Of a stretch of 54,011 bases of DNA, positions 19,992-49,595 are shown piece after piece. Source of the stretch: a virus; the IMG/VR virus record IMGVR_UViG_3300024264_002174, positions 1-54,011 of that record, one strand, 5' to 3'. How positions within the stretch are numbered: the first letter of the stretch is position 1; each line of letters opens with the position of its first letter. Position numbers and translations under genes: made by a program. The notes beneath the pieces are model-generated. The model made no database searches. It was not told the DNA's origin and saw nothing but the letters and a program-made list of their open reading frames with translations.

Positions 19992-20003
19992 AATATAAAT
20001 ATC
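19992..20003 (-). promoter_or_regulatory. Putative late promoter motif GATATTTATATT
   Basis: The minus strand reads AGATATTTATATTAAAATAAAACA, ending about 15 nt before the ATG of the tube gene. It lies in the 37-bp gap after the sheath gene. Confidence 0.5.
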
Positions 20004-21849: not shown

Positions 21850-21860
21850 TATATAAATAG
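21850..21860 (-). promoter_or_regulatory. Second promoter-like motif upstream of sheath gene
   Basis: The sequence CCTATTTATATAGG on the minus strand is a short palindrome containing the TATTTATAT core, 80 nt before the sheath ATG. It may be a second promoter or an operator-like site. Confidence 0.35.
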
Positions 21861-21880: not shown

Positions 21881-22132
21881 CTATATAGGTTTAAAAACTC
21901 CCGATACTATGTCTACTGTGCCTCTACCGTACTTTTTTTCTAGACCTTTTGCAACTTCTAATTCTCTTGTTTTAAGCTTAAAATAATAATCTTCTGCTCT
22001 TTCTTTTCTTCCTTCGAGCTCTAATTCACTAATGCTAATCTTACCAAGTTCTTCGGTAATCATTCTACTGCTTTTATCTATACCTTTAAGTATTCCTATT
22101 TCTTCTTCAGAAAGTTTTAGTTCTCTATCCAT
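21881..22132 (-). CDS. Small coiled-coil protein closing the modification cassette
   Basis: The 83-aa protein is mostly charged helix (residues 1-65, rich in Glu, Lys and Leu) followed by a short conserved-looking tail, YGRGTVDIVSGVFKPI. It directly abuts the stop of the last radical SAM gene, so it is probably translated from the same mRNA. Function is unknown. A helical leader plus a short Gly-rich tail could fit an accessory or substrate peptide of the radical SAM enzymes, but a structural or assembly role is at least as likely. Confidence 0.6.
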   Translation of the reverse strand: MDRELKLSEEEIGILKGIDKSSRMITEELGKISISELELEGRKERAEDYYFKLKTRELEVAKGLEKKYGRGTVDIVSGVFKPI

Positions 22133-23347
22133 TTATATAACGTTTTTATTAATATAAGGTTTAAAAATATTACTCAACTCAGGAAAAGTCTTTTGAAACT
22201 CTTCTTTTCTATTTACATCTAAAAAATCATTAACTTTGAAAAACTTATCAAAAGATTCAATAGGAGCTGAATTTTTATTCATAAATTCTACTGTTGTATA
22301 CACTTGATCTTTAACTTCTTGTAAATCTATTGACTCTGCATAGCTCATTAATTTTTCAGTTATCTTACCTTTAAAATTATTAGGTATACATTTAACTGAG
22401 TAGTAAAGCGGCCAGCTAACTTGATTAAAGAATAGTGGCATGTTAGGAAAAGTTAAAGTAAAAAAGTCACTTACCTCTCCTAAATCTAGTATATTAAGAA
22501 CTGATACTGTAACGCATATGTCTAACCTGTAGTTAAGTTTATCTTTAGTAGCATCATTCCACTTATTCATATTTTTGAGTACTTCTACCCAGTTACCATG
22601 GTATCTTATGTAATTAAACTTATCTTCTATTCCATCTATACTAAAGCTAATAGTAGTATGTTTAAACTGGTCTAATATTTTTACGTATTCTTCACTAAAG
22701 ATAGAACCGTTAGTATTAAAATGAAGTCTTATATTTTTACTATATCCTAGTTCAATTAGCTCTTTGAGAAACTCCCATTGTTTCTTTACTAAGAAAGGTT
22801 CACCACCGTACATATCTATGGTTTCCAATGTTGGAGCTACTTCATAAACTGATTCCCAGAATAGACTGTCATCTTCATAACTCTTGTACATTTTCTTAAC
22901 ATACGAATTATACTCTTTATCAGTTTTGTCGTTGAATCTAAGTTTTTTATCTTCTTTATACCATTTTATGCTTGCTTCTATTCCGCACATACGGCATGCA
23001 AAGTTACAAGTATTACCTAAATTAAGTTCTAAGAATCTTACAGTATTAATTAATTTTTTTTCTCCAAAATTTCTAGTATCTCTTATTCTTTTACTTTCAA
23101 TACCTGCATCTTCTTCTTTCCAACATCTTGTACATTCAACTGGTCTTTCTCCTTTATTAAACTGTTTTCTTAAATCAGATAAAGTTTTATTTTTAAATAC
23201 GTCCGGTAGTGTGGTAGAATTAACGTTTACTTTTTTACCTTCTTCGTCTTTGTAATCTATATTAGGATCAAAGTAACAGCAAGGTTGAGTAGTACCGTAG
23301 TTAGTTACTCTAAGACCACTTTCAATATGTACACATCTTATACTCAT
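22133..23347 (-). CDS. Radical SAM protein 6, N-terminal twitch domain (CC type)
   Basis: The 404-aa radical SAM enzyme has the cluster motif CNFACRMC at C114/C118/C121 and the SAM-binding GGEP motif (MYGGEPFLV). Before the radical SAM core is an N-terminal twitch-like cysteine set: C5, C23-C24, C72 and C75, enough for an auxiliary 4Fe-4S cluster. The C-terminus has the family tail NRKEEFQKTFPELSNIF. Such enzymes start chemistry with a 5'-deoxyadenosyl radical, often on peptides or sugars. It overlaps the upstream radical SAM gene by 4 bp and is the last enzyme of six in a row. Confidence 0.88.
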   Translation of the reverse strand: MSIRCVHIESGLRVTNYGTTQPCCYFDPNIDYKDEEGKKVNVNSTTLPDVFKNKTLSDLRKQFNKGERPVECTRCWKEEDAGIESKRIRDTRNFGEKKLINTVRFLELNLGNTCNFACRMCGIEASIKWYKEDKKLRFNDKTDKEYNSYVKKMYKSYEDDSLFWESVYEVAPTLETIDMYGGEPFLVKKQWEFLKELIELGYSKNIRLHFNTNGSIFSEEYVKILDQFKHTTISFSIDGIEDKFNYIRYHGNWVEVLKNMNKWNDATKDKLNYRLDICVTVSVLNILDLGEVSDFFTLTFPNMPLFFNQVSWPLYYSVKCIPNNFKGKITEKLMSYAESIDLQEVKDQVYTTVEFMNKNSAPIESFDKFFKVNDFLDVNRKEEFQKTFPELSNIFKPYINKNVI

Positions 23348-24603
23348 ATTAATTTACCTTTTAATGCATTAAATAACTCAGGAAAATGATCGTTCATTTT
23401 CTCTCTTCTTAATTTATCTACAGCATTAGTAACTTTGAAAAATTTAGATATTTCATTATTATAAGGAGAGTTATAGTACCTGCCGTAAAAATCATGATAT
23501 AGTTCACTACTTAATTTACCTTTAATACTATCTATTTTTTGCTGTCTTATATTCTGTGGTATAACAGTAGCATTCTGGTATGCAGGAGCATGTACGTGAT
23601 TAGGTATGATTCTTGGTATTTGACCAGTACCGTCTAATTTATATAGCCCTTCTTTTACTAAGTATTGAGATAATTCTTCGCAATATAGGAAATTGTAAGC
23701 ACTTATAGTCTGAGTAATAGTATAATTAAAGTCAAATCTCTGTATAAATTTTTTAATATTGTCTATAGTTAACTTAAAATTACTCAGTTTTCTAATATAT
23801 GCATTTCTTTCCCATATATCGTCTAAGCTAAAACTTATATATACGTTATGAAAATTTTCTAATTTCTCTAAAACAGGTATAAGTTTTTCGAAATTGTAAT
23901 TACCGTTAGTTATGTAAAAAATATCTATACCTTTAGCAAGGTCATCTTCTACTAATCTTTCTAATAAGTAAAAATGCTTCTGTACTAAGAAAGGTTCTCC
24001 TCCACTTATGTGTAATTGACGTATATTAGGACTATTAGATATTAACTTATCATAAAATTGTTGGTCTTCCACCCAATCGTAGTTAGACCACTTACTATTT
24101 TTCACCTTATCAAAATTACTAGGTAGAGGTACCTTATCTTTTAATTTATAGTAATCATCTATCCATGAAGTAGATGACTCTGCATTACAGGAACGGCATT
24201 TTAAATTACAAAAGTTACCTAATCTTAATTCTATATTAGATAAGTCTACATCTATACTACCATCTGGTTTTGTTATTTCATCAAAGTCTACATCGAATAC
24301 TGAATCTCTAACTCGTTTTGATCTACCTCCTGATTCTTCTACTTCCCAACAGGTCTTACATGCTAGAGGTTTTTTTCCTTCAAGCATCTCTTTTCTAATA
24401 GTCTTATAACTATCAGAATTAATTATATCTTCCAGAGGGTCCGTAGCTACATTATGTATTCTAAACTCAGCATCTACTCCAGTAGTAGCTTGTGATCCAA
24501 TATAGTTATGATCAGATACACAGCATATAGAGCAGTTACCGTGGGGGTGTACACTTAAATGCTTCCATGGTAAATCACATATAAATCTTTCTTCTTTCAG
24601 CAT
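23344..24603 (-). CDS. Radical SAM protein 5, N-terminal twitch domain (CC type)
   Basis: The 419-aa paralogue has cluster motif CNLKCRSC at C132/C136/C139, GGEP in HISGGEPFLVQ, and N-terminal cysteines C9, C24, C27-C28, C82 and C85. The N-terminus PWKHLSVHPHGNCSICC has the 'P-W-x-H...P-x-G...CC' form typical of twitch-domain radical SAM proteins. It has one extra Cys (C24) relative to its neighbours. The C-terminal RREKMNDHFPELFNAL tail is shared with the other five. Its ATG overlaps the previous stop as TAATG, so the genes are translationally coupled. Confidence 0.88.
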   Translation of the reverse strand: MLKEERFICDLPWKHLSVHPHGNCSICCVSDHNYIGSQATTGVDAEFRIHNVATDPLEDIINSDSYKTIRKEMLEGKKPLACKTCWEVEESGGRSKRVRDSVFDVDFDEITKPDGSIDVDLSNIELRLGNFCNLKCRSCNAESSTSWIDDYYKLKDKVPLPSNFDKVKNSKWSNYDWVEDQQFYDKLISNSPNIRQLHISGGEPFLVQKHFYLLERLVEDDLAKGIDIFYITNGNYNFEKLIPVLEKLENFHNVYISFSLDDIWERNAYIRKLSNFKLTIDNIKKFIQRFDFNYTITQTISAYNFLYCEELSQYLVKEGLYKLDGTGQIPRIIPNHVHAPAYQNATVIPQNIRQQKIDSIKGKLSSELYHDFYGRYYNSPYNNEISKFFKVTNAVDKLRREKMNDHFPELFNALKGKLI

Positions 24604-25880
24604 TAAAGTTTACTTTTTCCTATACTGTTATACCATTCAGTATAATAGGGATATATTTCTAAAAAATTCTCATTACGACCTTTATCTATTTTATCCGTCA
24701 TAGATTTTAATTGAGCATATATTTTGTTAACATTATCTTCTGGGCTTTCATCCATAAACTTAAATATACTGTCATATTTTATTTTTAATTCTTCTTGCTC
24801 TCTTCCTTCAAATTTTTCTAAATGTTTACTATATAGGTATTTTACTTTATCTTTTAATTCAGTAGGTAGTATATTAATATTGTAATATAAAGGATTAGTT
24901 AAAATATTATTTAATTGAATATGAAATACATCTAATCCTAATTCTACCATTCTGTCAATAAATGTAGGTATATGGAATACGTTCATTATACTGGTAGTAC
25001 AACTAACGTGAAAGTTTAAACCTTCATCTATACATTTCTTTATATTAGCCTCTACTACAGGCCACTTTGTACCTTTTCTTTTATATTCAGCTACTTCGTT
25101 TATACCATCTATTGAAGCAAATATTGCCACATTATCATTATTTACTTTTCTAAAAGGTTCCCATATTTTTAGATTATCCCATTTTTTAAATTTTAAGTAA
25201 CCTAAATTTGTATTATACCTTATTCTAACGTCAGTATGACCAATCTCGATAAGCTTTTCCATAATATAATAATGCTCATCCATTATAAGAGGTTCTCCTC
25301 CGGCAAAATAAATTTCCTCTACGTCTTCTATAAACTTGTTAAGGTAGTATTGAATATCTTTTTTACTGTAATCATTTACATTTATTATAGCTTTAGGTAA
25401 ATTAGAACCCCCAAATATCTTTATTTCGTCTTCAAACCATTTAGAACTTAAATAAGAACCGCACATCCTACATTTAAAGTTACAGAGGTTAGAAAATCTA
25501 AAGTCCCAATAAAGAAGTTCAAACTTTTCATTAGTTCCGTCTGGTTTGGTATGCTCTATTATATTAGGTATATGATGTTTGTAATGTCTATTAGTAGAAG
25601 TTCTAGTACTATCTAATCCGTTCCTTTCCTGCTGGTAGCATTTTCTACAATTGTCATGCTTCTTACCTAATAGCATATCTTTGCGGATGTCTTTCATTCT
25701 AGCAACATTCCATAGTTCTTCTAGAGTGTTATCCTTCATATTACCTAACTCTTCTCTATAGTCAGTTAAACAGCAAGGATATACATTACCGTTAGGCCAA
25801 GTATTAAGGTGAATCCAAGGAAGGATACAGAATGTAGGGCTAATTTGATCCCCTGGAGCTAGTAGTTTAGTTTCTGACAT
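24603..25880 (-). CDS. Radical SAM protein 4, N-terminal twitch domain (CC type)
   Basis: The 425-aa paralogue has cluster motif CNFKCRMC at C133/C137/C140, GGEP in YFAGGEPLIMDE, and N-terminal cysteines C18, C36-C37, C78 and C81. The N-terminus reads FCILPWIHLNTWPNGNVYPC, the clearest example here of the twitch consensus. Its C-terminal motif is the most diverged of the set (NFLEIYPYYTEWY in place of FPEL..FY). It starts 1 bp after the stop of radical SAM 3 and is coupled to radical SAM 5 by a TAATG overlap. Confidence 0.88.
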   Translation of the reverse strand: MSETKLLAPGDQISPTFCILPWIHLNTWPNGNVYPCCLTDYREELGNMKDNTLEELWNVARMKDIRKDMLLGKKHDNCRKCYQQERNGLDSTRTSTNRHYKHHIPNIIEHTKPDGTNEKFELLYWDFRFSNLCNFKCRMCGSYLSSKWFEDEIKIFGGSNLPKAIINVNDYSKKDIQYYLNKFIEDVEEIYFAGGEPLIMDEHYYIMEKLIEIGHTDVRIRYNTNLGYLKFKKWDNLKIWEPFRKVNNDNVAIFASIDGINEVAEYKRKGTKWPVVEANIKKCIDEGLNFHVSCTTSIMNVFHIPTFIDRMVELGLDVFHIQLNNILTNPLYYNINILPTELKDKVKYLYSKHLEKFEGREQEELKIKYDSIFKFMDESPEDNVNKIYAQLKSMTDKIDKGRNENFLEIYPYYTEWYNSIGKSKL

Positions 25881-25881
25881 A

Positions 25882-27219
25882 TTATATATTTTGGAACCAA
25901 TCGTTAAATTGAACTGGCATAAATTGTTTTATAGGTTTTTCTCTACGTCTAGCGTATTGAACTGTAAAGTTTTTAAAGTCGTTAGCTTTATTTTTATAAC
26001 TATCTTCGTCTTCATAAGCTTTATCTACATTTCTAAGGTATACTAATAACCTATTGTAATGATTGATTTCCCATTCGTGCATCCAATCTTTAGATGGAAT
26101 TAATACCTTTTCTATTTTATAGGCTAGATCATTTTTAATTTCCTTTGGTAATATATTCATACTTTGAAAAGAAGGAAATCTTAAAATATTAACTGACATA
26201 TAAAGCATTTCTTTAGTGCCTGCTTGTTTTCTCCAACTAATAATCTTTTCTAGAAATTTATCTGTAGTCCAGACACTTAGTGCACTTAGAGTCATCATGA
26301 TATGTACTGCTCTTATCTGAGGAGCTGCCAATAGTTTAGTAATATTTCTCTCCCATATATCCCAATCAAAACCATCTCTAACAAATTCTTGATTTCTGCC
26401 AAAAGATTCTGCACTAGTGTAAATATCGAATGCTTTGAATTTTTTTGCTGATTCTATTAATGTATCCAGCCTATCTTCTGGCATTATGAGATTACTATTG
26501 ACTGCAAAATCAAATGTATCATTATCACACATTTCTAATAGTTTCCAAAAAGAAGGTGATCTAGCAGGTTCTCCTCCTGATACTCTAAGTTCTTGTAATC
26601 CTCCTCTAATTGAAGGAAACCATTCAAAAAACTTCTTAATAAATTCGTTACCTTCGTTTTTATGTCCAAAAGGCATTGCATGAGAACCATTATTAGCAAA
26701 AGTATGACCTCCTTTAGTTTCCATTCCTTTATAAGGACCATTCTTATTGATATCTTGAGCCCAAGTAGAGCTAAACTCAGCATTACAGTAGCTACAAGCT
26801 AGGTTACAAAGGTTATCAAAAGCAAGTTCTACTGTCTTAGGAATAACATTATGATCCCAAGGTTTATCTTTTATCTTTACTATCTCATCAGTAGTGTACC
26901 TATGTGATTGATATACCCTATCACTGTAAACATCTTTTTTGCCTTTAGCTGCATCTTCTACTCTCCAACAGTACCCACATTCTTTAGGTCTATCACCTTC
27001 AAGCATTTCTTTACGAGCAGTTTTCTTAAACTCTGTATTGTGAAGGGCAGATGGATTGTTTTGCAGTTCCATTCTAGGTATATGGTGGGCTAGAGGATGA
27101 TGGCATGATGCTGTTCGCCCATTACCTAACCATATCGACACATTATACCACTTAGCAGCACAAAAGGAAGGTGAAATTGAATCTATTAGCTTTTTAGTTT
27201 CTTCTAAGCTTCTTGACAT
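25882..27219 (-). CDS. Radical SAM protein 3, N-terminal twitch domain (CHH type)
   Basis: The 445-aa paralogue has cluster motif CNLACSYC at C138/C142/C145 and GGEP in RVSGGEPARSPS. The N-terminal cysteines are C20, C39, C81 and C84, with C39 followed by two His (SCHHPLAHHIP) instead of a second Cys. This CHH form is shared with radical SAM 1 and 2. The C-terminus has RREKPIKQFMPVQFNDWF. It overlaps the radical SAM 2 gene upstream by 16 bp. Confidence 0.88.
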   Translation of the reverse strand: MSRSLEETKKLIDSISPSFCAAKWYNVSIWLGNGRTASCHHPLAHHIPRMELQNNPSALHNTEFKKTARKEMLEGDRPKECGYCWRVEDAAKGKKDVYSDRVYQSHRYTTDEIVKIKDKPWDHNVIPKTVELAFDNLCNLACSYCNAEFSSTWAQDINKNGPYKGMETKGGHTFANNGSHAMPFGHKNEGNEFIKKFFEWFPSIRGGLQELRVSGGEPARSPSFWKLLEMCDNDTFDFAVNSNLIMPEDRLDTLIESAKKFKAFDIYTSAESFGRNQEFVRDGFDWDIWERNITKLLAAPQIRAVHIMMTLSALSVWTTDKFLEKIISWRKQAGTKEMLYMSVNILRFPSFQSMNILPKEIKNDLAYKIEKVLIPSKDWMHEWEINHYNRLLVYLRNVDKAYEDEDSYKNKANDFKNFTVQYARRREKPIKQFMPVQFNDWFQNI

Positions 27220-28574
27220 AACTTGTAAAATTGTTTAAGATCAGGAAAAGCAGCATCAAATGATGTTCCTCTTCTCTTATCGTATTCTTGAGTAAAATTA
27301 AAAAAATCTTTACGGTTAATATTTAATTTACTATCTTCATCCGTATTATTATACATATGATCTACTAGCCTATTTAGCTGGTCGATTTGGGTTGCTGTTA
27401 GGCATTCATCTTTATCTAAACCTGAATCGTAATGACGTTCTTTAATTAATATGTCAACAGATTCTTTAAACCTATCTTTCGATTTTATATCTAAGTTAGT
27501 TATAGCTAAGAATTCAGGATAACGTAAGTAGTTTGTCATAAACTGTACCTTGTCAAAATTTACGGTTTTATTATGTACCTTCCTTAATGATAAAAGATAT
27601 CTTATAAAGTCACAGTACGTACCTACGCTAGTTAAATTAACTGTTGTCATATTGGCTACTAAAACGTTATTAGTCTCATTTAATATTCTTTCAAAATTCT
27701 TTTGCCATTTTTTATAGTTAGTACCAAATCGTATATATTCATTAGCTAGTCCTGTTGCTTCCCCGCTAGAAAAGACTTGTATTTCTTTTACCTTACCGTC
27801 TAGTTCGTTTAACTTGTAAATTAGCTTATCTATTAATGCATCTGGTACTAATAAATTAGTATTAACACAGAAGACTAGTTTAGGATTAGGATTTTCTATA
27901 ACTTTATCTATAACTTTCCAAACATCTTTAGAGAGTAAAGGTTCTCCTCCTGTAAGTCTCAAGGTATGTAACTTAGGAGCAAGTTCCGGCCACCATTTCC
28001 AGAAAGCTTCTACATAGGGATTATCTTCACTATATTTGTATGGCATTTTATCTTGAGACTTAAACCAATCTAAATTGTTAAAATTAGTAGAAGTAGGATA
28101 TCCACCATGCTGCTCTATCTCTTGCATCCAGGAAGTAGATATATCAGGTGAACAGTAAGCACATTTTAACTGACAAGCACTACTAAAGCTAATCTCAAGA
28201 TAGCTAGGCTCTATATCAGCTGATTTTCGTTGAACTATTTCTTCTAGTTTAACTGTAGACATTTCATGAGCTGATTTGTATACTCTATCGCTTATATAGT
28301 CCTTCCCTAAGTCCTCTATTTTCCAGCAGTACTCACATTCAGAAGGTCTTTCTCCTCTAAGCATTTTTCTCATTTGAGACTTCTTATGCTTTGTATTGTG
28401 AAGAGCTTTAGGGTTTTCTAGTACTTCTTCTAAAGGTATTTTATGAGGTGTAGGATGGTGACAAGAATGATTATAACCTGTATGTAAGTATAAAGTTAAC
28501 TGTGCCCATTTAGCTATACAGAAGCTAGGGCTTATTTCATTTAACTTTTCTCTTATAGAATAAAATTCTTGCAT
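27204..28574 (-). CDS. Radical SAM protein 2, N-terminal twitch domain (CHH type)
   Basis: The 456-aa paralogue has cluster motif CQLKCAYC at C134/C138/C141, GGEP in RLTGGEPLLSKD, and N-terminal cysteines C19, C38, C80 and C83 with SCHHPTPHKIP. It is most similar to radical SAM 1: both carry NPYVEAFWKWWPEL before GGEP, and both end RRGTxF...FP(D/E)L..FY. The pair probably arose by a recent duplication, with the LamG-like gene now between them. Its start overlaps the LamG gene stop by 1 bp. Confidence 0.88.
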   Translation of the reverse strand: MQEFYSIREKLNEISPSFCIAKWAQLTLYLHTGYNHSCHHPTPHKIPLEEVLENPKALHNTKHKKSQMRKMLRGERPSECEYCWKIEDLGKDYISDRVYKSAHEMSTVKLEEIVQRKSADIEPSYLEISFSSACQLKCAYCSPDISTSWMQEIEQHGGYPTSTNFNNLDWFKSQDKMPYKYSEDNPYVEAFWKWWPELAPKLHTLRLTGGEPLLSKDVWKVIDKVIENPNPKLVFCVNTNLLVPDALIDKLIYKLNELDGKVKEIQVFSSGEATGLANEYIRFGTNYKKWQKNFERILNETNNVLVANMTTVNLTSVGTYCDFIRYLLSLRKVHNKTVNFDKVQFMTNYLRYPEFLAITNLDIKSKDRFKESVDILIKERHYDSGLDKDECLTATQIDQLNRLVDHMYNNTDEDSKLNINRKDFFNFTQEYDKRRGTSFDAAFPDLKQFYKLCQEA

Positions 28575-29221
28575 TATAATATTTTTCCTATCAAATTATA
28601 ATTGTTTGTATAATCCCAAACTTGATAATCAGTTCTATTTACAAAATCATATACTCCAGTAGAATTATATTCAAGCAACTCTTCTGTTGTATATGGTTTG
28701 ATACTTAAAAATTCTTTAGTTACAAAAAACTGCTTAAGTTCTATTTCACTATAATTAAGATTAAACCCATTATGAGGAAAATTACCTGAGCCTAGTATAA
28801 TATGAGATTCATCTGATTTTAATAACTCTTCATTTTCATCAAATTGAACTTCAATTATTACTTTTCCGTCTATGCTTAAGTCTAAAAAGTTTTTTTGTTT
28901 ACTATACCTTATATAGAATCTATGAAAATCCTTATCTAAACTATAATCCGAAAATTCGTAGTATGCTTTTTCTTCTCCGTTATTAACTGTCTTTATTATA
29001 AATAAAACATTATTATTTTCTTTCTCTATATCTAGACCTAAATAATTAGGTAATCTTGAAAAAATAGTTCGTTTATCTGAGCCTTCTGATAGAAGTTTAA
29101 ATTCTATGCCTAGAGTAAAGTCGTTGTCTCCTTGAAGAGAATTATTTATATCTTCTTTACAGAGCCCGTGACTATATTTTTTAGGCCATACTATCCAAGG
29201 TTCACCTTTATTTATTATCAT
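28574..29221 (-). CDS. Stand-alone LamG/ConA-like protein
   Basis: The 215-aa protein has the alternating beta-strand pattern of a LamG/concanavalin-like jelly roll: NDFTLGIEFKLL, FHRFYIRYSKQKNFLDLSIDG (a common LamG strand pair) and HIILGSGNFPHNGF. It has no signal peptide. It lies inside the radical SAM array (overlaps: 14 bp with radical SAM 1 upstream, 1 bp with radical SAM 2 downstream). The same kind of domain is inserted in the two GT7-like proteins upstream, so it probably binds the same glycan or protein partner. The fold call is by eye. Confidence 0.6.
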   Translation of the reverse strand: MIINKGEPWIVWPKKYSHGLCKEDINNSLQGDNDFTLGIEFKLLSEGSDKRTIFSRLPNYLGLDIEKENNNVLFIIKTVNNGEEKAYYEFSDYSLDKDFHRFYIRYSKQKNFLDLSIDGKVIIEVQFDENEELLKSDESHIILGSGNFPHNGFNLNYSEIELKQFFVTKEFLSIKPYTTEELLEYNSTGVYDFVNRTDYQVWDYTNNYNLIGKIL

Positions 29222-30593
29222 AGTAAAATTCTGCTAGTTCAGGAAAAGTTTTTAAAAAATTAGTACCTCTTCTTTTATCATGTTCATCCACAAATTTAAC
29301 TAAATTGGATCTCTCTAATTTTAATTTATCTTCATCTATGTTAGATTTACTCCAATCGTAAATTCTTTTCATTTTATTAATTTCTATGGTAGTAAATCCT
29401 AACTGAGTGTGATTAAATACAGGTGAACTTTTAAAGTACATAAGCTCAGCATTTGATCTTATAAGTTCTTTATGGCTGTCAGTTAATAGTTGAACTGTTT
29501 GATGATGAGGGTACCTTAAGTAAGATGTATCTAAATGAATTGCATGCTTCCAATATCTCTTATCGTTAGCATATTCTTTTTTAAGTTTATATACTCCATC
29601 AATTAACTTATTATAAGTGAACGGAGAAAACATATTATACGTAGACATTAATACTACTGTAACGTTAGGAAGTTTATCAAGTAAAGTGTTGACATTATCC
29701 CAAAACTTATTAAAAACTAAACCATTTCTAATATATTCTGCTTGTTCTCCCCATCCGTCAACAGAAGTAAAAATAATAAACTCGTTAACTCTTTCTTCTT
29801 GAATTATTCTATCTACTTTTTCTACAAACTTATCAAATAGGTTATCAGGGATACCAAGATTAGTATTTACTGAAAGGTTTAGTTTACGGTTAGGTTCATT
29901 TGCTTCTAAAATAAAGTCTAATACTTTCCAGGTATCTTTAGAAAGTAGAGGTTCTCCTCCAGTTATTCTAAATGTATGTAAATCGTTGTACAATTCAGGC
30001 CACCACTTCCAAAATGCTTCAACATAAGGGTTATACTCTGACTTTAGATAAGGTATGTGTCCTTTTTCTTCTAAAGTATCTAACCTACCAAATTTATCAT
30101 CAGTTGGATAAGGACCTTTAGATCTTATTTCATCCATCCATTTAGAAGAGAACAAAGGACCGCAGTATGAACATTTAAAATTACAGGTATTAGAAAAAGA
30201 TACTTCTACATACTTAGGGTTATAGTCCGAATTCCATGGTTTAGAAACTATTTCATCAAAGTGGTCCATAGACCATGGTTCTGATGATTTAAGTACTCTA
30301 TCGGAAAATCTATCAGAATTATCTTCTACGTTCCAGCAGTAATCACACTCTTTAGGTCTCTTCCCTTTGAGCATACTCATCCTTTGACGCTTCTTATGTC
30401 TTGTATTATGAAGCGCAGTAGGGTTTATTTGTATTTCTTTAAGAGGTATTTTATGAGGAGCAGGGTGGTGACAAGAATGAGTAAGTCCATTATGTAAGTG
30501 CATAGTAACTTGACTCCACTTAGCTATACAAAAGCCGCAGCCTACATTGTCAAGCTTATCCTTGACATCATTAAAAGCTACAGGTAACTTCAT
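29208..30593 (-). CDS. Radical SAM protein 1, N-terminal twitch domain (CHH type)
   Basis: The 461-aa protein is the first radical SAM enzyme of the array. Its cluster motif is CNFKCSYC at C137/C141/C144, GGEP is in RITGGEPLLSKD, and the N-terminal cysteines are C19, C22, C41, C83 and C86 with SCHHPAPHKIP. The C-terminal tail is KRRGTNFLKTFPELAEFYYD. It overlaps the upstream GT7/LamG gene by 4 bp, which ties the radical SAM enzymes to the glycosyltransferases in one operon. Substrate unknown. Confidence 0.88.
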   Translation of the reverse strand: MKLPVAFNDVKDKLDNVGCGFCIAKWSQVTMHLHNGLTHSCHHPAPHKIPLKEIQINPTALHNTRHKKRQRMSMLKGKRPKECDYCWNVEDNSDRFSDRVLKSSEPWSMDHFDEIVSKPWNSDYNPKYVEVSFSNTCNFKCSYCGPLFSSKWMDEIRSKGPYPTDDKFGRLDTLEEKGHIPYLKSEYNPYVEAFWKWWPELYNDLHTFRITGGEPLLSKDTWKVLDFILEANEPNRKLNLSVNTNLGIPDNLFDKFVEKVDRIIQEERVNEFIIFTSVDGWGEQAEYIRNGLVFNKFWDNVNTLLDKLPNVTVVLMSTYNMFSPFTYNKLIDGVYKLKKEYANDKRYWKHAIHLDTSYLRYPHHQTVQLLTDSHKELIRSNAELMYFKSSPVFNHTQLGFTTIEINKMKRIYDWSKSNIDEDKLKLERSNLVKFVDEHDKRRGTNFLKTFPELAEFYYDNK

Positions 30594-32011
30594 AGTTCTA
30601 TATTGAGCATTTTAGCCCATGGAGTAAAAACTTCTTCGCTAATTAATTTATATTTTAATTGTTTTATACCGTCATCCTTGTAGTCTATTTCATCTTGCTG
30701 CATACCAAGTACATATCTTCTTTCATTAGCAGCTGTAGTTTCACCTTTGACAAACTTACCGTCTACTATTCCTTCGTCTTTATGAGGTAAACATCTCATT
30801 CTACCTTCTACTCTATGAGGAATAATAGAGTTAGGAATTTTTAATCTCTCTTCTTTAGTCTCTATATTGAAAATATCTAATTTAGATTTAGGATCATTAG
30901 CGTCATAATTTGTAATTAATCCTTTTTCTGGGAGTTTTATATGTAAGTTTTTAACTTCTATAGGTTTAAGTGCTCTATCCCAAGTGTAAACTCTAGCAAT
31001 ATCTCCTTTAAAAAACTTATGAGTACTTTCTGCAGGTTCAGATGGGGATGTTCCTAAATATATACTATTAGTTCCGTACTTTTTTAACTTACCCGCAAAT
31101 CTAAAAGGAGACGGGCTACCAAATCCTCCTTTAGAGTCTACTTCAGTACCGTTTAAGTAAAGGTGAGATAAATGATTTTCTTCATCTAATACTGCTGTTA
31201 ACCAGCTCCACTGATTATCGTATCTTTTAAGCCACATGTAATTATGTTTATTAAAAGAGTTCCAATAAGTTAAGGAAAGGGCCCTAGAGTTATTAAATGA
31301 AAATCCGTAATCATAACCAGGTATTCTTAGAATAGGATACTCAACATATGCTCTTTTTTTATCTCCTATAAGAAATATTTTATTCTTATCCAGTGTATGA
31401 TATGCTCTTACTAATACTGATATAGTGTGTGACTTAGCAGTAAGGTTCCTCATACTCATATCGAATGGAAACTTTGCGTATGAATCTATACCATTGAAGT
31501 TAAGGTACTTCTGGTTAACGTTATCTATATCTAGCCATGTATCGTTAGTAAGTCCTTCTTTATGACATCTCCAAAAGAGATCATCATCTTCCATACCCCA
31601 GTCCCAGTATCCGTTACTGTACCCATTTGTAGCTTCTACTTGTTCCTTAGTAAAGAGTACTGCTCCTCCAAAATATTCATGATATTTAAGTTGATAATCC
31701 ATTTGAGATATCTGAGTAGCTATATGTCGAGGTGCTTTTTCTGGGTATGAGTAGTCTGCTCCTCCTTCTTCCTCAGGTATCATATCTATATCATGCCAAA
31801 CTATATAATCACACCCATCTTCAAATGCATGTTTTGCTCCTATATTTTTTGTTGCACCTCTATTGAATAGTTTATCATCTACTTGATGAACAATGTATAT
31901 CTGGAAGTCGATACCTTGGTTTTTAAGGTACTTACCTATTTTCGGTATGAATTCATGCATATGTAGCTCTCGATTCCTATAGGGAACACATACACCTAAT
32001 TTGTGACTCAT
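30590..32011 (-). CDS. GT7-like galactosyltransferase with inserted LamG domain (copy 2)
   Basis: The 473-aa protein has N-terminal GT-A elements typical of beta-1,4-galactosyltransferases (GT7): VPYRNRELHM, FNRGATKNIGAK, the metal-binding HDIDMIP (73-79), EYFGGAVLF and WGMEDDDLFWRC (138-149). From about 165 to 390 it switches to a LamG/ConA-like beta domain. At 397-473 GT7-like C-terminal features return: LPH (408-410), NERRY and DGIKQLKYKLI, matching the 'IRH...NPxRF...DGLxSLxY' end of GT7. The catalytic domain therefore appears split by the insert. It overlaps copy 1 by 4 bp. Confidence 0.75.
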   Translation of the reverse strand: MSHKLGVCVPYRNRELHMHEFIPKIGKYLKNQGIDFQIYIVHQVDDKLFNRGATKNIGAKHAFEDGCDYIVWHDIDMIPEEEGGADYSYPEKAPRHIATQISQMDYQLKYHEYFGGAVLFTKEQVEATNGYSNGYWDWGMEDDDLFWRCHKEGLTNDTWLDIDNVNQKYLNFNGIDSYAKFPFDMSMRNLTAKSHTISVLVRAYHTLDKNKIFLIGDKKRAYVEYPILRIPGYDYGFSFNNSRALSLTYWNSFNKHNYMWLKRYDNQWSWLTAVLDEENHLSHLYLNGTEVDSKGGFGSPSPFRFAGKLKKYGTNSIYLGTSPSEPAESTHKFFKGDIARVYTWDRALKPIEVKNLHIKLPEKGLITNYDANDPKSKLDIFNIETKEERLKIPNSIIPHRVEGRMRCLPHKDEGIVDGKFVKGETTAANERRYVLGMQQDEIDYKDDGIKQLKYKLISEEVFTPWAKMLNIEL

Positions 32012-33411
32012 ATCTTAGCTATTATATGGTGATAATTCTTAACATTTATATAGTCTAACTCTCTATGTCTGCAATTAGTTAGTCCGTCTTTTTCATAGTT
32101 AGTTCTATTATTCTTAGCTTTTTCTAAGTATACTTCTTGATTTTCTCTACTTTTCCAAGATACCCAATATCCGTCTTTATATCCATTTTCATCGTGAGGT
32201 AAGACTTTAAATTTTCCTTTCTTTCTATGAGGAATAGGTAGCTTAGTATCGAAAGTTAATGAAGTAGTTGTAAACTCTGTATTTTTGGTATATCCATTGT
32301 TTTCGTTTCCTGATAAATCTAATACCATGTTCTGATTGGTAAATTTAAGATCATAGTATATTTTCATATCATTTCTATTAAAGAATTCAAATAAGCTCTT
32401 ATTAATATTCCCTGATAAGTCATATATTTCTTTCTTATCTAATACTTTGTCAAAGATACAAAAAGTATCAATAGATCCTTTAAACCAATTCGGCTTTTTT
32501 TCTCTTTCAGGATTACCGGCACCTAGAAACATATATTTACTCTTTTGTAACTTGTATAGATCATCGTACGTATTACTCCCTACTTTCTCACCATTTATGT
32601 AAAAGTTAATTTCTCTAGGTTCTACTGTATTACATATCGTAACGATAGCGTTATATGTACCTTTAGGTAAATTAAGAGAGGGTATAGATATAGAATCTAA
32701 ATTTTTCTTCCAAAATTGAAATGAAAAGTTACCAAAAGAGTTGTAAGTAACAGTAGTATCAAAGCCTGGTATCGACCATATGCTATACTCATCTATTATC
32801 TCTTCCATATTAGTAGGAGTATCATCTACTGTAAACGAAGTATAGATGGTAAAGTCTTTTAGTGAGTTTACTACATTAGGAACTACTATATAACTATCTT
32901 TTCCATTAAACTTAAGAGCTCTATCTACTCTTCCTCTTTGAGTTACTATTTTAGTGTCAAGGTTAATATGATTCTCTCTACATCTTAAGAGTAAGTCATC
33001 ATCTTCAAATCCCCATCCATCATACGTATTTGAATATCCGTTTACCTGTCTAAATATATTAGAAGGAAATAATGTTACTCCTCCGAAATATTCGTCAAAT
33101 AGAGTACGAGATACATCATCAGGTAAATCAAACTCTGTTATCAAATGAGTAGGTTTAGATTCATACGTATAGTCTGCTTCCACAGGTAGCATATCTATAT
33201 CGTGAAATACTACGTAATCACATCCTAATTCTTCAGCCTTTAAAAAACCTATATTTAATAACTTACCTCTATTGAAGTCATCTCGATCACTTTGCTCAAC
33301 TACTATGAGTTCGTAATCAATATTTAAATAATTAGTAATGTGTTCTCTAAAAGACTTAAGTTGATTAGGTCTGTCCCTATATGGAACTATTAAACCTAGT
33401 TTATGACTCAT
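32008..33411 (-). CDS. GT7-like galactosyltransferase with inserted LamG domain (copy 1)
   Basis: The 467-aa paralogue of the neighbouring GT7/LamG protein has the same plan: VPYRDRPNQ, FNRGKLLNIGF, HDIDMLP (70-76), EYFGGVTLF and WGFEDDDLLLRC (133-144), then a LamG-like region (about 165-385; includes EINFYINGEKVG, typical of a LamG strand pair), and a returning GT7 C-terminus with LPH (404-406) and DGLTNCRHREL. Sequence identity to copy 2 is mainly in the catalytic parts, while the LamG inserts differ strongly. That suggests different ligands. It overlaps a 64-aa gene by 11 bp. Confidence 0.75.
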   Translation of the reverse strand: MSHKLGLIVPYRDRPNQLKSFREHITNYLNIDYELIVVEQSDRDDFNRGKLLNIGFLKAEELGCDYVVFHDIDMLPVEADYTYESKPTHLITEFDLPDDVSRTLFDEYFGGVTLFPSNIFRQVNGYSNTYDGWGFEDDDLLLRCRENHINLDTKIVTQRGRVDRALKFNGKDSYIVVPNVVNSLKDFTIYTSFTVDDTPTNMEEIIDEYSIWSIPGFDTTVTYNSFGNFSFQFWKKNLDSISIPSLNLPKGTYNAIVTICNTVEPREINFYINGEKVGSNTYDDLYKLQKSKYMFLGAGNPEREKKPNWFKGSIDTFCIFDKVLDKKEIYDLSGNINKSLFEFFNRNDMKIYYDLKFTNQNMVLDLSGNENNGYTKNTEFTTTSLTFDTKLPIPHRKKGKFKVLPHDENGYKDGYWVSWKSRENQEVYLEKAKNNRTNYEKDGLTNCRHRELDYINVKNYHHIIAKI

Positions 33412-33595
33412 TTTCTTTTTCGGGTTCTCCCTTTTCTAAAAATTCTGATAAGTAATACTGGATTCTTTCTCCCCATTCTTCTTTATCTATTTCTTCAAAC
33501 CATAGCACAAGAATAGCTAAGCTTTTAGATATTTTTTCTAGAGCTTGAACCTTACGTTCTTCGAGTAAAGCTTCTTCTACTTTATTTTGACTCAT
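33401..33595 (-). CDS. Small coiled-coil protein in the modification cassette
   Basis: The 64-aa, highly charged, mostly helical protein (VEEALLEERKVQALEKISKS) includes one aromatic/hydrophobic stretch (LAILVLWFEEI) and an acidic C-terminus. It overlaps the glycosyltransferase genes on both sides (11 bp and 4 bp), so it is clearly part of the operon. Function is unknown. It could be an adaptor, a carrier or a modification substrate. Confidence 0.6.
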   Translation of the reverse strand: MSQNKVEEALLEERKVQALEKISKSLAILVLWFEEIDKEEWGERIQYYLSEFLEKGEPEKENES

Positions 33596-34431
33596 ATTGT
33601 AACTATTTTATTTTTTAGTGTATCCCAATGAGGATAGTCTTTATACTCAATATACGAAAGTTCTTTCATATTTTCAACTAAAAACTTAAGATTATTAGTA
33701 TCTATTTTAAAATTATTTTTCTTTATAGCATCAAACATAATCTTATATTCTTCTGAGTAGGAATAATCTTTTTTATTATCTGCTACTTTTTTTATTCTCT
33801 TTACACAGGTTGAATCCCATTTAAAATGATGTACCTGAGTAAATACTTCTTCTATCGGCATACGTCTTCTATGTTCAGTACCCCAGCTATTAGATCCATC
33901 GTTGAATGATGCGTAATGCTGACCTGAGGTAATATTTTGATAACCTTTCATTAATGTAACTTTATTAGGACAAGCTTTAGACATTGGGTATCTAAAAAAT
34001 CCTGCAAGAGGAAATGCTCTGTGTATATCTGTCTCTCTCGTAACTTCAGGAAAAGTACCATCTATACCTATTCGATCTAAGAACCCCCCTGTAACAAACT
34101 CATAACCGTATCTCTCACAATTTTCAATGATGTCTTCGATAGGTTCTGGGTATACTTGTAGTTCGTCATCATCAGATACTATCCACCAGTCGTGAGGTTT
34201 AGTTTGTTTTATAGTATTGTATATTTCTGTTACTCTATTCCAATTGTACTTAGGTTCGGTAAACACCATAAATGGTTCTATACCTAACTCTTCTATTTCT
34301 TCTAATATACCATCATCATCACTTTGACGATATACTGCTACATATGCTTTGTCTATAACATTTTCATAATGTTTTAACATATGAGGTAATATATGAGTAT
34401 TTTCTCCTACTACTGTAACTAAATTAGGCAT
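33592..34431 (-). CDS. Glycosyltransferase family 2-like protein
   Basis: The 279-aa protein has a GT-A-like start (NLVTVVGENTHILPHMLKHY) and an acidic DxD-type motif in WWIVSDDDELQVYP near residue 105. This pattern is typical of Glyco_tranf_2_4-type enzymes that act on cell-surface or protein glycans. A basic C-terminal part includes the HHFKWDSTCVKRIKK segment seen in such transferases. It overlaps the methyltransferase gene by 8 bp. Donor and acceptor sugars cannot be predicted. Confidence 0.7.
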   Translation of the reverse strand: MPNLVTVVGENTHILPHMLKHYENVIDKAYVAVYRQSDDDGILEEIEELGIEPFMVFTEPKYNWNRVTEIYNTIKQTKPHDWWIVSDDDELQVYPEPIEDIIENCERYGYEFVTGGFLDRIGIDGTFPEVTRETDIHRAFPLAGFFRYPMSKACPNKVTLMKGYQNITSGQHYASFNDGSNSWGTEHRRRMPIEEVFTQVHHFKWDSTCVKRIKKVADNKKDYSYSEEYKIMFDAIKKNNFKIDTNNLKFLVENMKELSYIEYKDYPHWDTLKNKIVTI

Positions 34432-35191
34432 GTCTGTATAATGTTAATCCTGTTGAACTAGGTTTACCTTGAAGATTACCTTCATTAAAAAGGTTAAGTT
34501 TTTGCCACCCTCTTATACTCTCTTTATTAAATTTAGAGGGACCTTCCGTAAAAGATTGATATTGATTTTGTTCCTGTAAGTCTTTAGAAACTATATAATT
34601 GTTTTCATATCTACTGTCAGTATCGTGAATTGATATTAATCCGTTATCTGAAAGAAGGTTAGAGTACAGTTCAAAGTCCTGTTTTACATCTTCGTATGAA
34701 TGACCAGCGTCTATATGTAAATAATCTATTTTTATATCTTCTTTTGTAAAAAAATTAAAATATGCATTTTTAGTTGTATCATTAATAAATCTAGGAAAAA
34801 ATCTTGATCTAAAAAAAGAATCCTCATCTAAATAATTTATTTTTCCTCCAACTCCATTTGCAGCATCAACTAAAAAAGTTGACCCTATATCCCCCCAATT
34901 AAATTCTTTTTTACCTTCAAATATACCTGAATCATACAAATCTAATCTTGCTTGAGTCATAATACGAGGTATAAATCCTCCTCCTGATCCTAAACACACA
35001 CAGATTTTAGCTCTAAGAAACTGTATGAGTGAGTATATCACTAAACCATCACCTAAGTGATTGTCTGTAGCACCATGAGTCCATCTATAAGGAACAGGTA
35101 TAAGTTTTTTATAGACTTGTTCATCGTCTCCTATTACTTCAATATAATCATTAGTTATATTTTCTTTTATGTAGTTAAGGTCTAAGATCAT
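34424..35191 (-). CDS. Class I SAM-dependent methyltransferase
   Basis: The 255-aa protein carries the glycine-rich SAM loop (CVCLGSGGGFIPR) and the later strand-helix signature IDYLHIDAGHSYEDVKQD followed by LLSDNGLISIHDTD, the Methyltransf_24 / cephalosporin-hydroxylase-like pattern of enzymes that often methylate sugars in surface polysaccharides. The N-terminal region before the SAM loop has a His/Gly segment (YRWTHGATDNHLGDG). It overlaps both neighbouring glycosyltransferase genes (17 bp and 8 bp). O-methylation of a phage or host glycan is the simplest reading. Confidence 0.75.
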   Translation of the reverse strand: MILDLNYIKENITNDYIEVIGDDEQVYKKLIPVPYRWTHGATDNHLGDGLVIYSLIQFLRAKICVCLGSGGGFIPRIMTQARLDLYDSGIFEGKKEFNWGDIGSTFLVDAANGVGGKINYLDEDSFFRSRFFPRFINDTTKNAYFNFFTKEDIKIDYLHIDAGHSYEDVKQDFELYSNLLSDNGLISIHDTDSRYENNYIVSKDLQEQNQYQSFTEGPSKFNKESIRGWQKLNLFNEGNLQGKPSSTGLTLYRHA

Positions 35192-36023
35192 TTAATTTTT
35201 CTAACTTTATACCTTTGTTATTACCTACGATTTTTTTAAGATTGATATACTCAATACAATTTTCGTCTTTTCTAATCCTAGGTTTATCCATCCAGTAATG
35301 TTTAAAATACTTATATGTTTCTTCTTTCGGTATAAGTCCTTTATCACAAGATACGAACTTTCTTTCATTCGCCAAAAAAACTTCTTTCATTAATGTATCG
35401 TATTCTACTTTATGATAATCTAATAAATGCTTCAGAGCCAGCTGTTCAGCAAAAATTAAAAATTTAGAATTTGGAACTTTTAATTTAGTAAACCTGTACA
35501 TTAATTCTAAAGAAAATTCAGCATACTTATTTGCAAATCTATAATCTGGAAAAAAAGAGAAGCAGCAATTTACTGCATAGGGTTTAGGTCTAGGAAGTAA
35601 ATCTGATACTTGTTGTATAAATGGATCATTTGCAGTTGGATAATATCGTACTCCATCTTCTTCATGAGCAAATAAATGTTTATCAGAAAATAAATTAGAA
35701 ATATTTCTGTATACTAAAAAATCGTGATCCATTATTAGAACTGGTTCTTTAATATTTCTTAAAACTTCTAATTTACTAGATGCCCAGAATACGCTCTTGT
35801 CTATACTTTTATTTGTAGAAAGTATAATAACCTGATTCCATGTGTCTAATGCATTAAGATCTTCTAGAAATGTCTTAGTTAATTTATCACAATATAAGGT
35901 AGTAGAGTACTGTGGATGATGTTTTTTCCACTGTACACCTGAACTGATAAGTAGTAGTGTATCTAACTTGGTATAAAAAGAGTTGTCACCCTTTATATTT
36001 TCATAAACCCATATAACCTTCAA
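35175..36023 (-). CDS. Putative glycosyltransferase, first gene of the cassette
   Basis: The 282-aa protein starts at TTG (36021-36023), because the first Met is internal. The motif LIMDHDFLVYRN, near residue 99, is a GT-A-type DxD metal site, and the surrounding WASSKLEVLRNI helix is typical of GT32/GT8-like transferases. The C-terminus is basic. It starts only 18 bp after the stop of a virion gene, and I saw no terminator or promoter motif in that gap. The cassette is therefore probably read through from the fibre operon. Fold assignment is moderate. Confidence 0.6.
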   Translation of the reverse strand: MKVIWVYENIKGDNSFYTKLDTLLLISSGVQWKKHHPQYSTTLYCDKLTKTFLEDLNALDTWNQVIILSTNKSIDKSVFWASSKLEVLRNIKEPVLIMDHDFLVYRNISNLFSDKHLFAHEEDGVRYYPTANDPFIQQVSDLLPRPKPYAVNCCFSFFPDYRFANKYAEFSLELMYRFTKLKVPNSKFLIFAEQLALKHLLDYHKVEYDTLMKEVFLANERKFVSCDKGLIPKEETYKYFKHYWMDKPRIRKDENCIEYINLKKIVGNNKGIKLEKLNDLRP

Positions 36024-36041
36024 TAACCTTTTGTTTTTCTA

Positions 36042-36488
36042 TTATGTAAATTCAGCGTAGAATACTGTAGTAGATGTTTGATCTGAAGTACCTAATGTTA
36101 ATGTTGTACCAGTCTGTATTTGAGCTCCTCCTGAACCTCCTGCTCTCCATCTTACAAATGTTCTAGGATAAGCAGCAGTTTCGTCTGCTGTTAATGTAAC
36201 ACTATTTAAATCTAAGTCAACATTTTTTAAAGTAGTCGTACTATTCACATCATTTAACGAGTAGCTACCTGCTGAAACATCTACAAATCCTCCTGTGGAT
36301 ACTTGTACTGATCCGTAAAACCAGTTACCATTATATATTTCGCTAGCTGATGTCGGGTTAGAATTAGAAGGAGAAGCATCTGCTAATGCATTATTCATAG
36401 TTACATTAGAATCAGATGATATATTATTGGCCCATGTATCAAAAGAGCTAAATGAAATATTAGTTGTTCCGTAAGTATGTACTGCCAT
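36042..36488 (-). CDS. Probable virion structural or decoration protein
   Basis: The 148-aa, Ser/Thr/Asn/Gly-rich, beta-type protein (for example YGTTNISFSSFDTW and TSTTVFYAEFT) has no Cys and few charges. It lies immediately downstream of the fibre genes and upstream of the glycosylation cassette. Composition suggests a secreted or surface beta-sandwich, such as a decoration or fibre-tip protein. I do not recognise the family. Confidence 0.55.
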   Translation of the reverse strand: MAVHTYGTTNISFSSFDTWANNISSDSNVTMNNALADASPSNSNPTSASEIYNGNWFYGSVQVSTGGFVDVSAGSYSLNDVNSTTTLKNVDLDLNSVTLTADETAAYPRTFVRWRAGGSGGAQIQTGTTLTLGTSDQTSTTVFYAEFT

Positions 36489-36490
36489 CG

Positions 36491-37039
36491 TTATGTTTTT
36501 ATAATTTTATTAGAAGGAAAAAATTTCTTTAATTCTTCTTTCAATACTTTATAACTATTACCTGTTAAGTCATCTAAAACTGATATGTCTATTACTTTTT
36601 TAGTTTCTTTAACTGTTTTTACTTTTACTTTTTTCTCTTCTTCTACTGTTCTATATAATGTTATTTCGTCCCCCTGTTCATCAAAACTTATATAGGGAAC
36701 TTCTACTTGAACTGTCTTTGTTTTATAAACTGGTATTTCTACCTCTTGTTCCTTAATCATTTCAAAGGTATATAAATTTTCTATATTTACCTTTTCACCT
36801 TTACTTAGTTCATCTTCGTAGTAAATTACATTAGAACCTACTAAGCCTACTGCATTTTTACTTTTATCATCAGCGTACTTTCTATTAAAGTTGGTAGCTT
36901 GCTCTTTATTGAGCCAAGCAGTAGTTGTAAAAGTAACTAAATTAGAAGATCTATTGATTTTCCAATTTTCTATTCTTATATAAAACTCTGAGGTAGGACC
37001 TGATGTTGTCTCTAATTCTACATTTAATTTAAAACCCAT
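36491..37039 (-). CDS. Hypothetical protein of the fibre region
   Basis: The 182-aa, charged, Val/Lys/Glu-rich protein has a beta-strand-rich first half (ETTSGPTSEFYIRIENWKIN) and a repetitive Val-Lys-Glu second half (VEIPVYKTKTVQVEVPYI, KVKVKTVKETKKV) that looks like an extended beta or coiled segment. It is 2 bp from its downstream neighbour and 3 bp from the S74 fibre gene, so it is in the fibre operon. It could be a fibre adaptor or attachment protein. Confidence 0.55.
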   Translation of the reverse strand: MGFKLNVELETTSGPTSEFYIRIENWKINRSSNLVTFTTTAWLNKEQATNFNRKYADDKSKNAVGLVGSNVIYYEDELSKGEKVNIENLYTFEMIKEQEVEIPVYKTKTVQVEVPYISFDEQGDEITLYRTVEEEKKVKVKTVKETKKVIDISVLDDLTGNSYKVLKEELKKFFPSNKIIKT

Positions 37040-37042
37040 TTT

Positions 37043-38701: not shown

Positions 38702-38732
38702 GAGTTATTTTGTTTTCGTATGAATTAGTCTT

Positions 38733-38743
38733 TTATAAATATC
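38733..38743 (-). promoter_or_regulatory. Putative late promoter motif GATATTTATAA
   Basis: The minus strand reads GATATTTATAAAAGAC, about 31 nt before the ATG of the S74 fibre gene. It is the last promoter-type motif I noticed upstream of the modification cassette. Confidence 0.5.
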
Positions 38744-39302
38744 ACTTTTTTACTACAACAGTACCGTTGAACGTGGATGTAAAAGTAATATCTAATGCAT
38801 TTGCTGATGTCGTTGTTATTTCTGATGGTATAACTTGTGCTCTACTACTACTATATACTTGAACTATAGGATAATCTTCTGATAAGCTATGTGTGACAGC
38901 ATAAGAGGATGCACCTGTAATACTTTGTCTGTATGTTTGTGTTGAACCGGAAACTATATGACCAGCTTTTCCTACTACTACCCTACCTGTAGTGGATGAA
39001 AAGAATGTTGTAGTTACAGTATTAGTATCAGTAGTTACTATGCTACCAGGAATAATCATAGCATCGTTGTCATCGTAAACAGTTACCTGAACGTTTTTAG
39101 TTCCGAAATTATGTGATGTAGCTACTGATGTTTGATTTGAGAAAGAATCAGCAATAGTAGCTGTTTCTGAAATATCTGATGTTATTCCTGTTAACGCTGA
39201 TCCATCACCTTTGAAGTATGATGCAGTTACAGCATTGGTAACACTAAGATTGGTTAAATTAGCAGAAGACCCGCTAACTATTAGTTTTTTCCAGTTTGGC
39301 AT
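38742..39302 (-). CDS. Short tail fibre paralogue with WKK N-terminal tag
   Basis: The 186-aa protein has an N-terminus (PNWKKLIVSGSSANLTNLSV, then ASYFKGDGSALTGI) shared with the two following fibre genes. It continues with a module (FSNQTSVATSHNFGTKNVQV, then GRVVVGKAGHIVSGS) also found in the 359-aa fibre. It therefore looks like a mosaic fibre made of an anchoring tag plus one module. The fibre role is inferred from composition, the shared tag and context. Confidence 0.65.
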   Translation of the reverse strand: MPNWKKLIVSGSSANLTNLSVTNAVTASYFKGDGSALTGITSDISETATIADSFSNQTSVATSHNFGTKNVQVTVYDDNDAMIIPGSIVTTDTNTVTTTFFSSTTGRVVVGKAGHIVSGSTQTYRQSITGASSYAVTHSLSEDYPIVQVYSSSRAQVIPSEITTTSANALDITFTSTFNGTVVVKK

Positions 39303-49585: not shown

Positions 49586-49595
49586 TATATAAATA
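49586..49595 (-). promoter_or_regulatory. Putative late promoter motif TATTTATATA
   Basis: The minus strand reads GGCTATTTATATAAAACTC, 12 nt before the ATG of the gp13-like gene. It follows the capsid terminator directly. Confidence 0.5.

Follow-up and report, generated by a model that had tools for sequence, protein, structure and literature searches.

The IMG/VR record IMGVR_UViG_3300024264_002174, whose 54,011 nt form the window analysed here, is a fragment of an uncultured T4-like phage. Domain and profile searches identified a T4-type gp23 capsid protein, prohead protease, sheath, tube and gp32 among its products, and it also encodes a UvsX-like protein, the small chain of ribonucleotide reductase, a DnaB-type helicase and a PolA-like protein. 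Between its fibre and sheath genes, as the initial annotation had noted, lies a cassette of glycosyltransferases (GT), a methyltransferase (MT) and six radical S-adenosylmethionine (SAM) enzymes. We found that it consists of a core with a conserved gene order and a variable part, the cargo, which in related phages is usually filled with sugar-making genes, and this suggests that sugars, most likely those on the phage's own particle, are the substrates that the radical enzymes alter chemically. Twelve genes and a small end gene had been placed at 21881-36023, and all 13 open reading frames (ORFs) were recovered there on the minus strand, with overlaps or abutments of at most about 20 nt. The features are listed from the fibre towards the sheath; locus counts refer to the viral loci described below.

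38734-38741, minus strand: TATTTATA, putative late promoter motif preceding the fibre gene; the next intergenic copy, at 21852-21859, precedes the sheath
37043-38701, minus strand: fibre-like trimeric protein with a C-terminal S74 (endosialidase-type) chaperone (Pfam Peptidase_S74, E 2.5e-14); neighbour and candidate acceptor
36491-37039, minus strand: p182, 182 amino acids, co-conserved with the fibre (80 loci; order S74-p182-p148-DUF6734)
36042-36488, minus strand: p148, 148-amino-acid Ser/Thr/Asn-rich beta protein (76 loci; weak Pfam Ig_7 match, E 0.048)
35175-36023, minus strand: GT-like DUF6734 protein (PF20508, 24.4 bits, under the cut-off of 27)
34424-35191, minus strand: MT, core class I methyltransferase (Methyltransf_24, PF13578, E 2.6e-10), candidate sugar O-methyltransferase
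33592-34431, minus strand: core GT2-type glycosyltransferase (PF13704, GT2_4, 27.2 bits; cut-off 27.5)
33401-33595, minus strand: p64, core 64-amino-acid helical protein (144 loci, nearly always between GT2 and GT7b)
32008-33411, minus strand: GT7b, core GT7 glycosyltransferase with inserted LamG (GT7N, GT7C and Laminin_G_3 all above cut-off)
30590-32011, minus strand: GT7a, core GT7 glycosyltransferase with inserted LamG (GT7N, GT7C and Laminin_G_3; AlphaFold2 model)
29208-30593, minus strand: rS6, core twitch radical SAM enzyme (NF033640, 338 bits), of a slow-evolving clade present in nearly all loci
28574-29221, minus strand: core stand-alone LamG-like protein, following rS6 in 116/144 loci (a relative matches Laminin_G_3)
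27204-28574, minus strand: rS5, cargo radical SAM enzyme (NF033640, 320 bits), sister of rS6
25882-27219, minus strand: rS4, cargo radical SAM enzyme (NF033640, 293 bits), own clade
24603-25880, minus strand: rS3, cargo radical SAM enzyme (NF033640, 391 bits), own clade
23344-24603, minus strand: rS2, cargo radical SAM enzyme (NF033640, 314 bits), own clade
22133-23347, minus strand: rS1, cargo radical SAM enzyme (NF033640, 305 bits), own clade
21881-22132, minus strand: 83-amino-acid small coiled-coil protein on the sheath side (homologue gp042 of Flavobacterium phage immuto, E 1.3e-15)

Both limits of the cassette as first drawn had to be moved. In the lineage of the window the co-conserved unit also takes in 36042-38701, i.e., p148, p182 and the S74 fibre. 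At the other end the 83-amino-acid protein was rejected as a member: its homologue sits directly before the sheath in immuto, which is without the cassette, and by this comparison the gene is part of the structural backbone. The LamG gene described as lying inside the radical SAM array is indeed present, but it closes the conserved core, and the five radical SAM genes beyond it form the variable part.

IMG/VR protein searches gave 535 stretches matching rS6 and 248 matching GT7a, and the best 80 of each were retrieved for the locus counts. The loci were picked by rS6 or GT7a, so these two genes are present by selection, whereas MT, GT2 and p64 are not; overlap between loci from one contig is frequent, and non-redundant counts were used where it matters. 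Across about 150 marine viral loci the core order MT - GT2 - p64 - GT7b - GT7a - rS6 - LamG is strikingly constant and recurs far beyond chance, with MT in 131 loci, GT2 in 143 and p64 in 144; among loci with enough sequence beyond the GT7-rS6 junction, a LamG-type gene comes next in 116 of 144. The gene preceding MT is more variable, being DUF6734 in the lineage with S74, p182 and p148 (a relative in locus L013 scores 77 bits); elsewhere a different protein, about 330 residues long, often takes this place. MT retains 66% mean column identity across 22 phages, with invariant H/D positions, and GT2 has invariant D87, D89 and H172 as well as a QVHHxKWD motif; PDB profile searches with these two proteins gave nothing usable. 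As the contigs reach 310 kb, the core is probably distributed over several phage groups. Our guess is that p64 serves as a scaffold and the stand-alone LamG protein as an acceptor binder.

Pfam divided GT7a and GT7b each into GT7N, GT7C and LamG, with GT7N and GT7C exceeding their cut-offs in both, in agreement with the GT7/LamG pair initially described. The insert of about 230 residues lies within the catalytic domain, between residues ~165 and ~390, and the sequence past it resumes the C terminus of a beta-4-galactosyltransferase (a weak second match, with conserved R400, H410 and DG). In 44 diverged GT7 proteins D74, D76, W138, G139, E141 and D142 are invariant before the insert and R400 and H410 after it, a set that holds the hallmarks of the family, namely the DxD metal site (D74/D76), the WGxEDD motif and the later metal-ligand histidine (H410). 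The invariance of R400 and H410 beyond the insert suggests that the split enzyme is under selection. An uninterrupted catalytic domain is usual in GT7 enzymes, though not strictly defining, and we treated the interrupted proteins as a variant of the family. An AlphaFold2 model of GT7a (pLDDT 93, built from 44 sequences) predicts the GT7 fold with the LamG domain inserted into it: the model superimposes on B4GalT7 and B4GalT1 at 1.2-2.7 Å over about 155 residues, and the insert resembles pentraxins. The window enzymes thus share catalytic fold and residues with these two GT7 enzymes and differ in being phage-encoded and in carrying the insert.

Among 84,980 species genomes searched, the full-length LamG-split GT7 occurred in only five short contigs of metagenome-assembled genomes, the four longer of which have the core genes arranged as in the phages; the remaining 29 matches cover the GT7 part alone. 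These contigs are best read as misbinned phage, and the architecture appears essentially confined to phages, making it a virus-specific glycosyltransferase architecture and an enzyme resource. Searches of INPHARED with GT7b and rS6, both for near DNA matches and by tblastn, gave no match.

All six radical SAM proteins, as initially counted, are full-length members of NCBIfam NF033640 (N_Twi_rSAM), scoring 293-391 bits against a cut-off of 170 bits. Their CxxxCxxC, GGEP and N-terminal twitch (auxiliary-cluster) cysteines are intact as invariant alignment columns, with CHHP replacing CC at the first twitch site in three of the six, and CxxxCxxC is kept in 432/432 full-length relatives. In a tree of 147 rows, rS1-rS6 fall in six separate old clades, and diverged phages have orthologues of most of them; a recent tandem duplication was rejected on these grounds. 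The slow-evolving rS6 is near-universal across loci and rS4 comes next; orthologues of rS1-rS3 occur in diverged phages, and rS5 is limited to close relatives. Marine viruses often encode this family and bacteria seldom do: only 2/395 Bacteroidota genomes exceeded the cut-off, and both bacterial copies adjoin glycosyltransferases, one a GT10 and the other an MptE-like/GT1 fusion together with a methyltransferase. An iron-sulfur (Fe-S) carrier gene (PF01521), considered as a possible companion of the radical SAM genes, was present in 3/16 records (G013, G020 and G021, the records of loci L107, L064 and L048), each with four to six radical SAM matches; it was absent from the richest record, with seven, and from all single-match records.

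Behind the core, the loci carry either extra radical SAM genes, up to seven, or nucleotide-sugar genes, and almost never both. Taking loci with three or more extra radical SAM genes as array loci, nucleotide-sugar genes were found in 2/42 array loci versus 76/94 others, and after dereplication on GT7a in 0/21 versus 51/64. The 10-kb view limits the sequence seen and lineages are not independent; the former is mostly answered by the loci readable as far as the sheath, with 0/19 versus 20/22. On the GT7a tree the cargo state switches eight times, at least five of these switches being forced by well-supported branches. The cargo families include an epimerase, a dTDP-sugar isomerase, a UDP-sugar dehydrogenase, a cytidylyltransferase, a sulfotransferase, a carbamoyltransferase and an SGNH hydrolase; the window cassette is without nucleotide-sugar genes and its sister loci have them. 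This exclusion is a correlation, and it is the strongest argument that the radical SAM enzymes serve the same end as sugar supply. Separately, a 441-amino-acid cargo family without a Pfam match (L164, 15043-16368) is present in 56/59 loci lacking extra radical SAM genes.

The window belongs to a marine T4-like phage related to immuto, whose sheath is 64% identical over the whole length, far above cyanophage sheaths. Because the sheath is closest to that of immuto, a flavobacterial host seems more likely than SAR11. The two phages are syntenic on either side of the cassette and no homologue of 22133-39302 was found in the compared stretch of immuto, so cassette and fibre together represent an insertion or replacement relative to that phage. 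An S74-type ORF lies upstream of the core in 63/91 loci. On the coding strand, TATTTATA occurs at 13 intergenic sites of the window against 0.85 expected, upstream of mainly structural genes (examples on the minus strand are 19994-20001, 21852-21859, 38734-38741 and 49588-49595); it also precedes the corresponding genes of immuto and the sheath in 28/30 loci. We regard it as a putative late promoter. Within the cassettes it occurs at 0.117 per kb, a density we took as background, and since it stands before fibre and sheath and is not enriched in between, the cassette is probably part of the fibre's late transcription unit. The T4 motif, when reverse-complemented, gives TATTTATA, and T4's TATAAATA is absent where TATTTATA stands.

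Membrane proteins are nearly missing from the cassette loci. Among phage ORFs of at least 100 amino acids, 21/2770 have a transmembrane-like segment and 0/2770 have three or more, versus 73/349 and 18/349 ORFs from bacterial control loci; none of the roughly 150 loci holds a flippase, polymerase, ligase or lipid-linked priming enzyme. The phages therefore encode no export machinery, in keeping with the decoration of a phage protein in the cytosol. Chance acquisition of an ordinary polysaccharide locus from a host, which the initial annotation had also considered, was rejected on the membrane-protein counts and on an architecture that is phage-restricted and conserved.

In our favoured reading, to which we give a probability of about 0.5, the cassette is expressed late, builds glycans in the cytosol and places them on a virion protein, and its radical SAM enzymes edit the sugars. 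Drawing on nucleotide sugars, the two LamG-split GT7 enzymes would work with GT2 and the DUF6734 protein to add sugars and lengthen the chain; the LamG insert, placed beside the acceptor-binding site of beta-4-galactosyltransferases, would hold a protein or glycan acceptor, and MT would probably O-methylate a sugar. The radical SAM enzymes would epimerize, dehydrate, oxidize or deoxygenate sugars on the attached glycan or on a precursor, with rS6 as the core enzyme and the other five standing in for the nucleotide-sugar pathways that occupy this slot in related phages. By exchanging cargo behind a fixed core, a phage could thus vary its glycan. The acceptor would most likely be the adjacent S74-chaperoned fibre or its partners p148 and p182. 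We infer both the radical chemistry and the benefit, be it receptor choice or particle shielding. The most specific form of this reading, in which marine phages build virion glycans with a fixed module and lectin-split, acceptor-holding GT7 enzymes, and exchange sugar pathways for radical SAM arrays that edit the virion glycoprotein after glycosylation, is put forward tentatively.

A multi-enzyme glycan-modification system, as initially proposed, is well supported by the catalytic residues kept across diverged phages, the sugar-gene cargo and the fibre-adjoining locus. The virion surface as its target is plausible given the lack of membrane proteins and internal late-promoter motifs and the late fibre unit; host lipopolysaccharide (LPS) is a possible target too. 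Several observations weigh against the favoured reading. Fibre adjacency is a circumstantial pointer to the acceptor, and 28/91 loci show no S74-type fibre upstream. Fold and profile searches gave weak and mixed matches to solved enzymes (BtrN, viperin, AprD4, BlsE, MoaA, SuiB and DesII), with viperin on top for rS6; naming a reaction from the rS6 fold search was rejected, the matches being too weak. The cargo exclusion could instead mean two cargoes with different purposes, and since a phage could lend cytosolic enzymes to host O-antigen export, the absence of membrane proteins is not decisive.

This last point leads to the strongest alternative, that cassette sugars are exported by host machinery onto LPS or capsule, excluding rival phages or sparing progeny. 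The cargo genes are typical of O-antigen sugars. In the cultured Vibrio phage K566, N-twitch radical SAM genes are interspersed with GT8 genes and lie upstream of pagP and lpxC, which both points to the envelope and counts against a virion target; such a role has also been proposed for pelagimyophage glycosyltransferases (PMC7029224). We nevertheless consider it rather unlikely, since export and priming enzymes are missing, the location and putative promoter tie the cassette to late fibre genes, late for altering a host surface, and LamG-split GT7 was not found in bacterial surface-polysaccharide loci. A host O-antigen or capsule locus further differs in the nucleotide-sugar genes that the window cassette does not contain. 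The K566 region (L169, 10455-23241) alternates radical SAM genes with two GT8 genes and a GT4-like gene before pagP and lpxC. Like the KVP40-type region in general it resembles the window in this interleaving, but it has GT8 rather than GT7/LamG, no core order, lipid A genes nearby and about 22% identity; it may represent a counterpart that acts on the envelope, here in a cultured phage.

Twitch/SPASM radical SAM enzymes often modify peptides, and the array could modify amino-acid side chains in the fibre, p148 or p64 (cross-links, epimers or methylation as in ribosomally synthesized and post-translationally modified peptides, RiPPs), with the glycosyltransferases working in parallel. SuiB is among the weak fold matches and p64 is a conserved small core protein. 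The arrays, however, exchange with sugar pathways and their cellular relatives adjoin glycosyltransferases; the window p64 has no cysteines and no leader/core pattern, and no RiPP recognition element (RRE) or peptidase was seen, making this alternative improbable. A RiPP precursor was sought among ORFs of at least 60 amino acids and none was convincing: p64 is conserved without a variable core, and Pfam and domain searches gave no RRE match. Highly improbable is a modification of phage DNA bases or small nucleotides by QueE-, MoaA- or viperin-like radical SAM enzymes and DNA glycosyltransferases, which the viperin match would suit, because the cassette lies among late structural rather than replication genes, no base-modification genes are adjacent, the cargo is of surface-glycan type, and we know of no DNA role for GT7/LamG, sulfo- or carbamoyltransferases. 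Its precedent is the hypermodification of DNA by virus glycosyltransferases (Pyle 2024, as cited in PMC12619734).

Virion glycosylation systems resemble the window in encoding glycosyltransferases beside structural genes. In chlorovirus PBCV-1, virus-encoded cytosolic glycosyltransferases and a methyltransferase build unusual capsid glycans. To our knowledge, this eukaryotic virus differs in its enzyme families and in lacking radical SAM enzymes, and we know of no radical SAM, methyltransferase or LamG-split enzyme in the mycobacteriophage system. There, phage-encoded glycosyltransferases decorate the capsid and tail tube (Freeman 2023, as cited in PMC12619734), a likeness at the level of description. 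The pelagimyophage host-recognition cluster is similar in content, being a hypervariable island in the tail-gene region of marine T4-like phages that holds glycosyltransferases and, in MAGV3 and MAGV16, radical SAM cassettes; a fixed core, a LamG-split GT7 and cargo exclusion are not described in the available text (PMC7029224). The T4-like marine genome TARA_ERS488813_N000010 likewise has many radical SAM genes, 12 in all, reported as Fe-S metabolism with no link drawn to glycosyltransferases (PMC5332604).

The layout had initially been called unfamiliar, which holds for the layout itself; T4-like phages with multiple radical SAM genes and tail islands that combine many glycosyltransferases with radical SAM cassettes (PMC5332604, PMC7029224) have been published, and phage virion glycosylation (as cited in PMC12619734) is known. 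Our literature search, outside which most subscription papers fell, found no report of the conserved core, the split GT7 or the swap of sugar pathways for radical SAM genes, which appear to be new, and no paper that ties LamG-split GT7 or twitch radical SAM enzymes to phage glycans. The marine-virus radical SAM family is thereby set in a context that is concrete and can be tested: a module, common among phages, with interchangeable sugar-making and radical SAM genes. If the favoured reading is true, phages would diversify their glycans by a new route, editing attached sugars rather than making new nucleotide sugars, and glycosylated virions would be widespread in the ocean and relevant to receptor choice and phage competition.

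Elsewhere in the window, a 1269-amino-acid protein with a weak cadherin-like match (42907-46716) stands among the structural genes, with no immuto homologue found, and an adjacent pair of cytidylyltransferase-like genes (2723-3539) is flanked by the DnaB-type helicase and exonuclease genes.

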